Shown here piece after piece: positions 1 to 60,500 of a stretch of DNA of 64,000 nucleotides. A model generated the notes under the pieces. It had not been told where the DNA came from. It did not search any database and saw nothing but the letters and a program-made list of their open reading frames with translations. The position numbers and the translations under genes were made by a program. Within the stretch, counting starts at the first letter, position 1. Each line of letters begins with the position of its first letter. Origin of the DNA: Asterochloris sp. CNOR1 (taxonomy: Eukaryota > Chlorophyta > Trebouxiophyceae > Trebouxiales > Trebouxiaceae); assembly GCA_963969365.1 (NCBI GenBank), contig OZ017753.1:1984001-2048000 (forward strand), in the 5' to 3' direction.

Positions 1-3000
1 ATCTGCACCAGACAGCAGCAGCTGGGCCTGCAACGCACTGAGCCCAGCCAGCTGCACCTGCTCAGCTCCCTCCAGCTCCTCTGACATCTGCTTCTCAGCC
101 GCCTCCAGCAGGGCGTCTGTGACATACAGAGGCGTCTGCAGCTTGAGGCGAACGCGTTCCCCCGCGGACTCGCCCCCTGTCAGGTAGTTGTATATGAACT
201 GCTCCAGGCCAGCAAAACGGCTGGCACCCCAGCGCTCATCCCGCTCAAGCTGGGACTCTGCCTGGGCATCCAAAACACCCCCTGCACATTGCAGCCTCTC
301 TGTGCCAAGCGCCGACCAATGACCAGTGCATATGAACAGGGTCGACAGTCTTCGTGTTTGTGATCACTGCTCATTGGTGCTCTGCTTGCTCTCCTCTGCT
401 GCTTTTTTTATGTGAACCGTCTTCAGGCAGAAGCCTCAGTAGGGTCGGTAGGCAAGCACTCATGAGTCGCTTCGCTGCAGGGCAAGCCAGTTGTAACAGC
501 TGACCCTGGTGCCTGCATCCAGCAAGTTCAGGGAGAAGGCCCCCTGCTGTATAGAAAGCACTGCTCCATCATGTCCCTTTCCAATTTTCATTCAGGAGGC
601 GCACACAGGGCTGCGCCCTGGTGTCCTATGCAGGCTGCCAGCTTAGGCGGGCTACCTGCTTGAGTCACAGAGCACCATCTGATGCAGACCCACGTACCAC
701 GACCAGCACTGCCGCACTCCAGCTTTGCCTCCAGCGCACGCCGGGAGCTGACAGGCAGCACCTGGGCAGACCCCACACCCAGGGCGCGCTGGGCGTTGTC
801 TCTCACGAATTGGGTCACCTCGTGCAGTTCACTCTCATTGCTCAGGATGTCAACCTGCAATTATACCCAGAATCTTCCTGTCAAATCGCAGCTGGGCACT
901 GTCCTCCAATCAACTCCCCTCATTGCTGAGTTGCCCACCTGCTGAGTGCCTGCCATAGTTGAAGACGAACATGGACGACTGATGCGTAGCCAGAGGCTAG
1001 CAGCAGGCATGACAAGCATGCAGCGTGCCCCTGCGGCATCTACCACAGGCAAACTTGCCCAAGATCTGGGGGAATCATGCTAAAAGCCAAACATCGCACC
1101 TTGTTGACCACAAACACCACCTTCTTGCCCCACTGGCGGATGTAGCGCAAGAACTTGACTTCGCTCTCTGTGAAAGGGCGGTCAGCGCTCATCACAAACA
1201 GCACCAGGTCAGAGCGGGGCACAAACTCCTCTGTCAGGCGCTGCTGGCGATCCAGAATGACGTTGGTGCCTGCACAGGCATCAGGTAGTCAGCAGCTGTC
1301 AGCATGTCTGGGTGATCACTGCAGCCAAGCCCCATTCGAGCCCAGACTCCTCAGCCAGACGTGGTTGGCTGTCTAGAATGATAGGTGGTGCCTGCAGAGG
1401 CGACTCTGCTACCCTTCCAGTGCAAACACCAGTGTCATTGCCACCAGGGTGGCTGCCATCAGCAGACCAGCCAGTGCAGCAGGGGCACCTCATCTTGGCG
1501 GCATTGAGAGGGTCAGGACGGCTGCATTGTGAAGCTAATGATGGAAAGGCACCTGGGGTGTCCACGATGTTGATCTCGCGAAGTAGCTCAGCAGTCAGGC
1601 GCCGCTCAAAGAACCCATCCTGCAAGCATACAAGCAGAATATTCCTGGCTATCAAGCTCTGCATGGCAAGATCCCCCGACCTGTGGCTTTGTAGCCTTTG
1701 TCAAGGGCTGACACTGACGTCAGACAGTGAAGCTGTGCCTTGCAGTCTGAAACATGTCAGAAGTCAAGCAGTTGTTGATGCTGCAGACACACCTACATAC
1801 AACATCCATGACCCGACAAATGCAGCAGCAAACTGTCAACCACAAGCAACGCAGACCTTCATGGTCACGCCCTCGTCATCTGAGCTTGAGCCCGAGCCAT
1901 TGCTGCTGGTGCCCTGCTCAGCAAACTTGAGAACGCTGATCTCGTTGGTGGTTGGCAGCACTCCTTCTGCCAGGTACCTGCAAAGGAGCACCCACTCATG
2001 GGCACTGAGTACATCAAGCAGGCCCACACGTGTGTACTGCAGCAAGCAGAGGCAAAATAATCACCGTCATTGGTGGGCTGTATTACCCAGGTAGACCACC
2101 TATGCACAGGAGCACCAGCACTTCTCACACAACAGGAGCAAGCCGCATCATCAGTCAGATATGGTACTGCTTCCCCAACCCTCACAGAGTAGCAGGGGCA
2201 AGACACACCTGTCCCCAACAAGGCGTTGATTACAGTGGACTTCCCAGAATTGAACTCCCCTACAACCACCAGCAGGAACAGCTCGTCCAGCTGCTTCAGG
2301 GCATCCTCAAGTAGCGAAATCTCCTCTAGCTGGGGAGTGGCCTCTCGCAGGTGGTCCAGCACCTTGAAGCAATCAAGGAAGGAACTTGAGTTTGTCAGAC
2401 GCCTGTGAATGGCGTGGTATGCCAGCTTTGAGCGAGGGGACGCTCATCGCAGCAGATGTGTGCCAGCAGCTTCCCAGGCAAATTGCAGTGGCAATGTAGG
2501 GCTGGCCTCCAGCCGGTGCTTGAGCAATTTTGCAAGCAGGGAGGTGCTTATTCGACTACATTGTTTGGGGGGCAGATCTCTGCAAGCTGCCGCCAGGTGC
2601 GCGTTCGTTGCAGGTTGTTACCATCAGAGGACAGTCAGGAGACGCAGCCAGCCATGCAATCTGATGCTGCAATGTACCATCATACTGGCCGCAGTGCAAC
2701 AGAATGCTGGCTGAGGCTTTGTGCCAAGTGACATGCGACATAGATGGAGGATGGGGCCCTTTGTGTAGACATGCATGGACGCGGGACGCCCCCATGCCCA
2801 TCATGGTGAGTAAACAAGCGAGTGTTAAGCAAAAAGCAATCAGCACAAGCATTTTGAGCGTCACCTGGCTCAGGAACTCTCGCTCAGCCTCCAGCAGGTC
2901 TTCCCGCTGGCGTGTGTAGACCTGAGAGGCCAGGGAGGGGCGGTCCTGCACTGCCAGGCTGGCACGGGTGCTGCCAACCTGTGCGGCGGCCCCTGCACCA

Positions 3001-57507: not shown

Positions 57508-60500
57508 ATGAAGGTTGAGGAGGAGGTGCTTGCCAAGCGCCGCAAGCTCAACAATGGATCAGTGTTGGGCCATGTGGTGAGCCAGCTGGGGCTGGGCATT
57601 GCATGCTGCAGCCGCTGGGCTGCCAATTGGCGTTGAGCCGTGTGGGCTGTGGCATGTGCTGTCAACATTGCACGGTTTTGGTCTGACCAGCCTCCAACGC
57701 CCCTCTTCGCATCTGCATAGCCTTTCTTTACGCTCAGGCTGAAGGCTTCCACTGCTGTGAATCGCATCGCTTGGTTGGATAGCAGATGGAGCTTTTGCTG
57801 CTTACACAGCATGCTTGCCGCTATCGGCTTATTTTGGCATGACTTGCCTGCAGGCGCCACAGCCTAATGGCGCCCTGCCACATGAGCGGCAGGAGTCTTT
57901 GTACACCCCTCTGCTGCCAGGCAATGGCACTGAGCAGCTGGGGCAGCTGCGCAGACATGGCAATGGCACTGCGGTGCGTCTGGGGGGGGCTAGCCTGCTG
58001 CCTAAGCCAGCTGATGCTGAGGCACCTCCAGATGCAGCTTCAGCCAATCAGGACCCAGCAACGGCGCTGGGGTCCTGTTTCGACCCGAACGCTTCCCTGC
58101 AGGCTGGGCCTGACACCCTGGCTGCGCTGTCAGAGTCTGCTGCAGCCCCGCAGCAGGCTGGGCACCAGGGGCATGCTGACGCTGTTTGTACACAGCACGC
58201 AGGCTACCGAGCTGCGGGGGCACCCCACGTGCCGCAACCACCTGCTGAGGCTGCTGTTCCGAGGGCTGAGCCCCATGACACTGGCCAGGCAGACATTAAG
58301 CAGCAGCAGGCCTCTGTAGCTGCTGCCCAGCAGCCGCAGTCGCATCAACAGGCACAGCAGCAGCAGCAATGCCCCAACAACCAGGAAGGACAGCAGCAGC
58401 AGCAATGCCCCCACCACCAGGAAGGACAGCAGCAGGCGCACCTGTATATCGAGACCCCAGCTGGTGCTGCTGCTGAGGCTTCTGGCAGCGAGCAGCCAAC
58501 AGCTGCTGCTCCCAGTGAGGCTGAGGAAAGGTCACAGCCAGCTGGGCCTGGCCCAGGCTCTGAGGCACAGACTGCAACAACAACAGCAGGCTATGTGAGC
58601 GGAGCATATACGCAGCGGGAGGCCTTTCTGCAGGGCCTGGAGGCTGCTGGAGAGATGTCCTTTGAGTATGTGCGCAATGATGGGCAGCGCCACAGCAGCA
58701 TGTGGTAAGCAGTGCTCCTTTGTACATGGCCCAATGTGTGGCAGAGCCATCAGTGACAAATGAAGTCTCAATCGCTGTTGCCTACTGCACAGCAGCCTGT
58801 GGTCAGGCTGTGGCCCCAGGGCTAACTGGCGCGTTGCCAGATAGGCCATGTTCTGAGCTGCTCACAGCAAGTGCAGCATGTACTGTGGCTGCTTTGCACC
58901 AGTGCTGTACGTCTGTGCATAGGCAGGAGTCGGAGATGTCACTACAGATAAAATGATGCACATGTTCTGGCACCTGGTATCTAGCATGCTTGTTGGCTGG
59001 AAAGCAGGCATCTGCTGCCAGGTGCTCACCTGCAGAATGTTGCTGCAAGGAGTACCCGCTGCAGGTATGTTGCTCTGAGGAGCTTGTCAGCAGGCCGCCG
59101 CTGAATGGGGGCGCATGACCGTTTTGGTATGCCAGGCTGCTGCTGCCCTAGCCCTCACCAAGCCTCTCCTGCAGCAAGTGATTGCTCTGACAAACATCGT
59201 CAGCCCTTAGCGGGTCTCCCCTGATGTAGGCTGGTCGCGCTAAAAAACATCTTCAGCAAGCAGCTGCCCAACATGCCCAAGGAGTACATTGCCCGACTCG
59301 TTCTGGACCGACGGCACCGCTCAGTCGCAATAGTGCGCACCCAGAACAACGTGGTGGGGGGGATCACTTACCGCCCCTTCCACGAGCAGTCCTTTGGGGA
59401 GATTGCCTTCTGTGCAGTCACTGCCAGCGAGCAGGTCAAGGGGTTTGGCACGCGCCTGATGAACCACACCAAGGTCAGCACGCGGGACTGCCTATCTGTG
59501 CATATCAAAGTGCATGCTGCACTGCCACTGCCAACGATGCCAGCAAGCAGGTCAAGGGGCTTGGCATGCGCCTGATGACCCACACCAAGGTCAGCAAATG
59601 GTCTACCCTAGGCAGTTGACATTTGCGTTATGCAGAAGCACTACCAGCAAGCAGGTGAAGGGGCAGGTGCCCGATGAAGCACACCAAAGGCCAGCACTGA
59701 GGAATGCAGGGGCCCCAGATATTGCAGGATTGAGGGCTCTGATCATGTTGTTGCTTCAGTTGATGTATTATGGTCAAGGTCCCAGTGGCCTGAACATTGC
59801 ACAAGCTTGGGCTGTCAATTCTGGGGGTGCAAGGCATCTCTTGCACCCCCAGCAGAATGTAGCCTCAATTACTGTCTATTCTTGAAGCTCCTAGCCTGTG
59901 CGCCGAAGTACAGGGAGGCCTCTGCAAGAGCTGAGCGCTACAGTTCACGTTGCACAGGGGATCAATAGCCTGCCCTGGTAGCTTGCCAAGTGCGTGCGGG
60001 TGTGCTCAAGGCACGTGATGCTGGCTTTTCCCCACGCTTTCGCAGCACAGTGCCATCACGTGCTCAGGGCAGGGCAGGACACATGCCTGGCAGCTCAGGT
60101 GCTGTTTCATTGATGGTCTGCTGCCGGCATCTGTCTTGCAGCACGCTGAGCTCCTCTGCCAGACACTTCTCTGTCACTGTAATGGGGCTTTGACTTGCCG
60201 ATACGCTCCCAAAAGACCCAATAGATGTTGCTGCAGGAGTATGCGCGTACAAAGGACCAGCTGACCCACTTCCTGACGTATGCCGACAACAATGCGGTGG
60301 GCTATTTTGCCAAACAGGGGTTCACGACGGAGATCACCATGCCCAGGGAGCAGGTCAGCCAGGCAGTCCAGCCAGTCCCTGTGCAAGAGCACTGCACCAC
60401 TTCAACGTGTGCAATGCTGGCTGCCATCAGGCTTGGCATCATGGTGCCTGTGGCAATGTGCATACGTGATCATGGCAGGTCCTGGTCCTGGTTGAACATC

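Follow-up and report, generated by a model that had tools for sequence, protein, structure and literature searches.

Introns of a green alga carry decayed copies of their own exon edges, probably left by short-range direct duplications

The introns of this alga contain decayed copies of the edges of their neighbouring exons, splice site included, and these copies are real, local and present beyond the window, i.e., the 64-kb stretch of DNA in which they were first noted. Their locality, direct orientation, exon-edge content and near-neutral decay are directly observed. Most of them are probably leftovers of random short-range direct duplications that lengthen introns and leave the protein unchanged. 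The sample comprises 264 kb of one 56-Mb genome, namely the window and 20 loci of 10 kb. Among the 120 listed hits of 1,641 in a sequence search, Trebouxia species are the nearest green algae with a name, and two Tanacetum entries have higher scores. Gene models were computed from the DNA alone with our own HMM, trained on the same 264 kb; they comprise 105 genes and 543 introns (median intron 198 bp), with consensus donor CAG/GTGAGC and acceptor CTGCAG/G (the slash marks the junction).

We compared each 40-bp exon edge with its own intron at a score of at least 28, which left 849 edges tested after 237 of 1,086 were skipped (<40 bp). A match was found for 33 of the 849. Introns of other genes, matched for length, gave 7 matches in 16,855 comparisons, and the edges' own introns gave 1 in 849 when reverse-complemented and 0 in 3,396 when shuffled. 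Other introns of the same gene gave 12 matches in 7,303 comparisons, 8 of these 12 being among 1,432 neighbouring introns. The initial annotation had described exon-edge copies in introns, and had set against this the case that own-edge matches are no commoner than matches to unrelated edges; over the 264 kb they are commoner. Its further claims, that copies occur on both the donor and the acceptor side and that the pattern is general, agree with the counts for donor (20/414) and acceptor edges (13/435), and with those for loci that it had not picked (24/630), where the pattern is as strong as in the window (9/219). No mobile family or introner was seen, given the 7 matches among 16,855 comparisons with other introns and the fact that stretches from GCN5, PP6R (42503-42760) and GATA each have one reported place in the genome, in a search that skips very common words. 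With one place reported for each of these three stretches, a mobile family as the source is rejected.

In the window, each of eight genes named beforehand has at least one exonic-intronic repeat pair. We refer to the intronic member as the shadow and to the edge in use as live. On the minus strand, the FZL gene (g0) has a live exon edge with the acceptor of intron 1270-1552 at 1219-1279 and, at an offset of 121, a 76% identical shadow at 1340-1401. The methyltransferase gene (g3, UPF0020 methyltransferase domain by Pfam) has copies across the two ends of intron 14115-14244, at 14104-14170 and 14234-14299 (78%), and their offset of 130 equals the length of the intron. In TENT4 (g4), the live junction copy at intron end 18089 (18028-18098) has a shadow at 17931-17999 (73%), and in the alpha-galactosidase gene (g8) the live donor edge at 33576-33636 has one at 33377-33436 (78%). 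PP6R (g10) holds three sets: an exon segment 20 bp from the junction, 38326-38358, with an intronic copy at 38477-38508 (88%); a live acceptor edge, 40066-40123, with a shadow at 40140-40196 (78%); and the live acceptor edge of intron 42563-43064, at 42503-42567, whose first shadow (42600-42661) is 76% identical to 42503-42565 and whose second (42690-42747) is 77% identical to 42508-42567.

The remaining genes lie on the plus strand. FTB (g2, Prenyltrans by Pfam) has a copy at 8412-8433, in intron 8394-8501, that matches 8309-8330 at 91% over 22 bp; this source lies 63 bp inside the exon, so that the earlier description of all eight cases as exon edges does not extend to it. In GATA (g5), the live acceptor edge of intron 26351-26484 (26468-26516) has a shadow at 26390-26435 (82%). 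Another exon edge of the same gene occurs in three copies, at 26641-26699, at approximately 26748-26789 (from the pair 26661-26789 and 26748-26889) and at 26831-26889, any of which may be the live one. The third is 87% identical to the first over 60 columns, for which the term nearly identical, previously applied to 26827-26890, is slightly strong. A gene outside the eight, g7, has a live donor edge of 14 exon and 12 intron bases (28442-28467) and a shadow at 28530-28555, 96% identical over 26 bp, whose flanks are unrelated to those of the source both by eye and in a zone test. Finally, the live donor edge of GCN5 (g16; 59419-59481, exon end 59473) has a first shadow at 59538-59596, 93% identical over 59 bp, and a second at 59639-59697 (78%). 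Serial copies thus exist, with two shadows each in GCN5 and PP6R, three copies in GATA and, at locus L012, a single exon edge with three shadows, although the reported upper number of five in one intron was not found.

Could the shadows be functional alternative or duplicated exons? Some of them keep open frames, the first GCN5 shadow among these, and several were called exons by the HMM. The GCN5 case is decided at the protein level. The HMM miscalled 59551-59589 as exon, and its model has 28 extra residues, of which the first shadow supplies 13; all 28 are absent from two aligned chains and from seven algal proteins. Because the seven relatives lack it, the first GCN5 copy is a shadow and not an exon. 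Across the sample, mismatches between exon and shadow amount to 124/738, 113/734 and 173/736 at codon positions 1, 2 and 3 (0.168, 0.154 and 0.235). Decay is thus nearly even over codon positions and near-neutral, and coding constraint on the shadows is rejected. Nor do offsets show a common excess of multiples of three (8/37 in class I-J, 11/23 in E-I and 5/17 in J-J, the last including HMM errors such as GCN5). A function as exons is therefore hardly credible for the shadows in general.

The splice sites of the shadows seem to share this fate. Both bases of the dinucleotide are kept in 19 of 26 pairs aligned past the junction, with one junction counted twice, and the neutral expectation is 0.67, from an identity of about 82% per base. 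Their decay therefore appears neutral-like in the sequence, with no sign that the shadows are used. A faster loss of splice sites, suggested by ungapped extension (GT kept in 5 of 16 readable cases, AG in 6 of 13), was dropped, since the ends of local alignments bias this count.

The geometry of the copies was examined through local repeats, detected by BLAST with our own banded aligner as a check. At scores of at least 34 and offsets of 12-600 there are 137 pairs, and 0 in one shuffled set. Copies overlap in eight pairs in all, for which the recomputed identity may come out at a trivial 1.00 (as at window 14460, L018 4101 and L028 4407); such rows were kept in fits and histograms. For the 48 pairs under 250 bp the median offset is 123 bp (middle half 92-167), which bears out the spacing of 80-200 bp given earlier, and the median ratio of copy length to offset is 0.52. 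A few repeats are arranged head to tail with length close to offset, namely L015 6918-7157 (121 columns, offset 119), L010 7127-7253 (62 columns, offset 65), L012 5648-5849 (96 columns, offset 106) and L020 545-744 (133 columns, offset 68). Offsets of 30-60 are few, with three pairs at this score by the banded aligner. No claim is made for the 60-bp lower limit apparent with BLAST, as shorter units are detected less well in simulation. Median intron length is 250 bp where repeats are present and 183 bp where they are not, in line with the proposed lengthening, although a long intron also gives a match more room.

These data bear on two further explanations. One is that introns are born when a piece of exon with AG/GT in it is duplicated in tandem, in which case the offset should equal the intron length. 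It does so within 3 bp in 4 of 113 pairs, e.g., at 14115-14244, and fails to do so in 109; as a general source of the pattern this origin is rejected, and we consider it very improbable. The other is the capture of nearby DNA, from any source, at breaks in introns, by synthesis-dependent strand annealing. Such capture would fit short copies that lie apart from their source, the spacer between them being unrelated, and also sources inside the exon (19 of 60 exon-intron pairs fall short of the junction). However, 116 pairs are direct and 1 is inverted at offsets of 20-600 bp, the offsets are far below the 1.2-kb average of the vertebrate class (PMC2671141), and in the 47 of 60 exon-intron pairs usable in a shift test the junction is included in 34, versus 19.2 expected under free placement. 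The signature of capture, with sources anywhere and in either orientation, was thus not seen in these pairs, the either-orientation expectation being based on one inverted example in the published account and on inference. Capture is, in our judgement, improbable.

We favor instead a process in which short direct duplications, most of them tandem now or originally, would enter introns at roughly random places, with offsets of about 60-250 bp. Where a duplication takes in a splice junction, splicing would continue at the outer copy and the mRNA would be unchanged; the inner exon edge and its splice site would remain in the lengthened intron and decay neutrally, and the event could recur at the same junction. 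Exon edges would be conspicuous through the conservation of the live exon: exon and shadow should diverge at the rate of one copy, and two intronic copies at that of two. This scheme presumes that most copies were born in tandem, that genes other than GCN5 also splice at the outer site, and that the molecular route is either template slippage or the filling-in of staggered breaks.

That junctions as such are duplicated, as the initial annotation had it, finds no support in repeat coverage. Inside introns, coverage is roughly level at every distance from the junction (4.5-6.9%), whereas in coding sequence it is 8.9% in the first 20 bp and only 1.5% at 100-150 bp, fading over about 100 bp. This combination is more in keeping with random duplications, most visible where a conserved exon anchors one of the copies, than with copying aimed at junctions. 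The excess of pairs that include the junction is predicted by tandem-type duplication, and also by junction targeting.

A junction-linked process deserves consideration, that is, either the copying of 25-80 bp pieces centred on junctions or gene conversion of shadows from the live exon, such that exon parts stay similar and intron parts vanish. It would account for sharp-ended patches of high identity with unrelated flanks (the 59 bp at 93% in GCN5, the 26 bp at 96% at 28442), and for the number of short pairs that take in the junction, 21 of 34 versus 9.7 expected (18 of 27 versus 8.5 with one pair per family). Homology is also lacking in the flanks: among 23 short pairs of at least 0.80 identity, 30% exceed the 90th percentile of flank homology, where tandem decay would give 80%, and in a flank-zone test the values are 27% of 92 pair flanks and 22% of 256 random zones. 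By families, moreover, 54 to 76 contain exon versus 11 that are intron-only. Yet intron-only pairs are equally patchy (19961-19991, 31 bp at 94%, offset 270; L024 5093, 23 bp at 91%, offset 259), and intron coverage shows no clear increase at the junction (6.9% in the first 20 bp versus 4.5-6.3% elsewhere). In alignments past the junction, moreover, intron parts match at least as well as exon parts (0.833 versus 0.813; 0.858 versus 0.812 in a second count), which exon-limited gene conversion would not produce. The same values also count against the favored duplications, since two intron copies decaying neutrally should show a lower identity in the intron part, except at the oldest simulated ages. 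We regard a junction-linked process as a contender, albeit an unlikely one. Equally doubtful, or slightly more so, is the corollary that copying or refreshing of junctions, by patches or gene conversion, makes introns grow in a way of its own and yields long-lived exon-like decoys with splice sites.

In neutral simulations of random duplication, exon-intron pairs outnumber intron-only pairs by a factor of 1.6 to 2.9, and of 4.3 at the oldest ages (9,635 to 2,253). The observed ratio is 60:21, or 81:21 when the junction-junction and exon-junction classes are added, and the family-based ratio lies above the pair-based one; intergenic pairs are few (2 versus 21 intron-intron pairs). A fit of age and unit length to the junction families predicts 5.6-6.6 intron-only families, against 11 observed, so that intron-only duplications are not in short supply, and 1.9-2.4 intergenic families, against one observed. 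This fit sits at the allowed age limit and implies 541-711 placements (ages to 0.4) or 2,184-2,789 (to 0.5), very many for 264 kb. Full tandem duplication at a constant rate is rejected (G = 100), and a mixture of ages can be fitted (p 0.32) only if the great majority of copies are of high age. Older ages reproduce the exon-heavy, short alignments in outline. The exon parts observed measure 29-44 bp, short of the 32-64 bp simulated (ages 0.2-0.4). Young copies are scarce: among 65 families that contain exon sequence, 4 are at least 95% identical, and one of these is an artefact. It is the short copies with unrelated flanks, the junction preference and the scarcity of young copies that allow for a junction-linked process.

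On the duplication reading, intron growth without mobile elements leaves a readable record, and the conserved exon is a ruler able to date the duplications. If this is general, intron growth in compact genomes could be counted event by event. Gene finders should be wary of such shadows, since our own HMM took one for an exon.

Among the listed matches in the open-access literature, none describes serial junction copies as a general means by which introns lengthen; related processes are described. In the account of Pace et al. (2009, PMC2671141), repair-mediated duplication by proximal capture has distances averaging 1.2 kb, with copies within 50 bp of the template removed as tandem. The two systems share short local copies that include partial exon and intron pieces and splice sites, and filler at breakpoints is listed among the likenesses; in the alga, however, offsets are about 60-250 bp, orientation is almost only direct, and junctions are over-included relative to free placement. 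Fill-in by CST and Pol alpha-primase at break ends generates small tandem duplications (Schimmel et al. 2021, PMC8355091) and, being direct and short, these suggest a possible route of birth; that work concerns Cas9-made breaks in human and mouse cells, and its abstract draws no link to introns. Novel intron positions in Drosophila arose from tandem duplication or sliding (PMC2891723), where, as in the alga, exon sequence is duplicated and one copy intronised; the Drosophila positions are new and have proto-splice sites, whereas those of the alga stay and the introns lengthen. In the potato RdRp gene, a tandem duplication across an intron-exon boundary made one new intron (Ma et al. 2016, PMC4974935). 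There too, as described, the duplicated segment spans an existing junction and inherits its splice signals from the parent, but in the alga it is existing introns that are lengthened, with decaying shadows left behind in many genes.

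Copies of exon edges in the introns of Asterochloris sp. CNOR1 are real. To quantify them, we combined the 64-kb window with 20 further loci of 10 kb, of which 18 were taken at one common offset on 18 contigs and two from a random list. These 264 kb amount to about 0.5% of the genome (56.4 Mb, 21 contigs), with one offset common to 18 of the 21 pieces. The initial annotation had proposed that introns carry decayed copies of the neighboring exon edge, and the implied excess over controls was borne out at about 90-fold: with a score of at least 28, 40-bp exon edges matched their own introns in 33/849 cases, versus 7/16,855 for introns of similar length in other genes. 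Reversed own introns yielded 1/849 matches, shuffled own introns 0/3,396, and other introns of the same gene 12/7,303. Own-edge matches occur in 13 of the 21 sequences, and the window (9/219) agrees with the other loci (24/630).

Comparison of the window with itself at 40 bits or more returned 19 direct repeat pairs, all within 400 bp; at this threshold there was no pair beyond 400 bp and no inverted repeat. Across the 264 kb, 117 repeat pairs (score at least 34, offsets 60-500 bp) group into 88 families: 54 exon-intron, 22 exon-only or junction-junction, 11 intron-only and one intergenic. Repeats touch 106 of the 543 introns.

The introns were modeled with a gene-finding HMM trained on all 264 kb, which gave 105 genes and sharp splice signals. 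About 6% of modeled donors in the window and loci have GC instead of GT, which this HMM permits. The gene names assigned initially agree with Pfam: Dynamin_N in FZL, Prenyltrans in FTB (models g1 and g2), PAP_assoc in TENT4, GATA in the GATA gene, Melibiase in the alpha-galactosidase, SAPS in PP6R, a UPF0020 methyltransferase domain in the methyltransferase, and an acetyltransferase in GCN5, identified as GCN5 by chain alignment. In the FZL model (window 1-5369), the dynamin-like GTPase is preceded by a match to PF02581 (thiamine monophosphate synthase-like; E 2.2e-8). A TENT4 intron holds a minisatellite of 19 bp in 4.2 copies (17651-17730).

In orientation the copies are direct; most are found 60-250 bp away from the source, and the median contents are 41 bases of exon and 5 of intron (60 pairs). 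They decay nearly as neutral sequence: first codon positions mismatch at 16.8%, second at 15.4% and third at 23.5%. Splice dinucleotides are kept in 19 of 26 pairs, approximately the neutral expectation, and nothing in the sequences suggests that copies are retained or used.

GCN5 supplies protein-level proof of a shadow, i.e., a decayed intronic copy. The HMM inserted three small exons after the exon that ends at 59473 and before the next conserved one, at 60237. Of the 28 residues that they encode, 13 derive from the first shadow; two aligned chains and seven algal proteins lack these exons. In the 59-bp shadow, all four changes, read by eye from the alignment, would alter amino acids. Relatives of GCN5 among the matches listed come from Trebouxia spp., Myrmecia and Coccomyxa. 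Over the aligned domain, three Trebouxia proteins are 81-83% identical to it, on which grounds the source is taken to be a trebouxiophyte green alga. The glutamine-rich N-terminal part of the model contains an in-frame 36-bp repeat in 2.3 copies (58354-58435).

Both ends of the 130-bp methyltransferase intron (14115-14244) are repeats with an offset of 130 (14104-14299), as expected for birth by tandem duplication, which 4 of 113 pairs resemble. At L019, one of the 10-kb loci, a 404-bp exon-plus-intron module is duplicated head to tail (6184-6987; 81% over 423 columns), each copy being predicted as part coding.

The initial annotation had also seen in these copies a process that duplicates junctions. 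Copying of exon edges stands; on present evidence, however, splice junctions are mostly not special targets. Intron coverage by repeats is similar at all distances (6.9, 4.5, 5.4, 5.6, 6.2, 6.3 and 4.7% in bins from 0-20 to 250-500 bp from the junction), while coding coverage starts at 8.9% in the first 20 bp, drops to 1.5% at 100-150 bp, rises to 3.7% at 150-250 bp, and is 0.7% farther out. Flat intron coverage with fading coding coverage is expected if random duplications sometimes span a junction. We simulated random tandem duplications under neutral decay, with assumed indel rates and ages. The simulated ratio of exon-intron to intron-only pairs was 1.6 (ages 0-0.8) and 2.0 to 4.3 in older sets; the observed ratio is 60:21 and, when every exon-containing class is counted, 81:21. 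With age and unit length fitted on junction families, 5.6-6.6 intron-only families are predicted versus 11 observed. By our own estimate, age-matched junction and intron-only families number 16 to 10, assuming that intron-intron pairs diverge twice as fast and excluding artefact rows. A test in which each pair was slid along the sequence points the other way: the junction was included in 34/47 pairs versus 19.2 expected, in 21/34 short pairs versus 9.7, and in 18/27 versus 8.5 with one short pair per family. Because tandem duplication itself predicts junction inclusion, this result weakens random capture more than it strengthens targeting of the junctions, with which it is nevertheless compatible.

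We consider it somewhat probable that the copies arose by short, random, mostly tandem duplications decaying neutrally in introns. The data reject full tandem duplications arising at a steady rate. Many copies are short, with unrelated flanks: flank homology exceeds the 90th percentile of controls in 30% of 23 short pairs (at least 80% identity), versus 80% expected. Where pairs extend past the junction, their intronic and exonic portions are equally similar, which counts against the favored explanation, since simple neutral decay predicts otherwise at most simulated ages. By identity, from below 75% to at least 95%, exon-containing families number 11, 17, 20, 9, 4 and 4, peaking at 80-85% (20/65), with 4 at 90-95%; one of the 4 at 95% or more is an artefact. 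So few young copies are not what a steady rate gives. Possible causes of the misfit are intron-internal deletions offsetting growth, an earlier burst of duplication, gene conversion by the live exon, and copying that was inaccurate at birth. Patchiness is also found in intron-only pairs, which favors a general over an exon-specific cause.

Among the literature matches listed, none presents junction copies that recur in series and decay as a general record of how introns lengthen. Related processes have been described: local duplications containing splice sites in vertebrates (PMC2671141), intron positions arising from tandem duplication in Drosophila (PMC2891723), a route, in human and mouse cells, by which small tandem duplications form at break ends (PMC8355091), and a tandem duplication spanning an intron-exon boundary in potato (PMC4974935). 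The potato case differs in that it concerns one gene, in which the duplication created a new intron.
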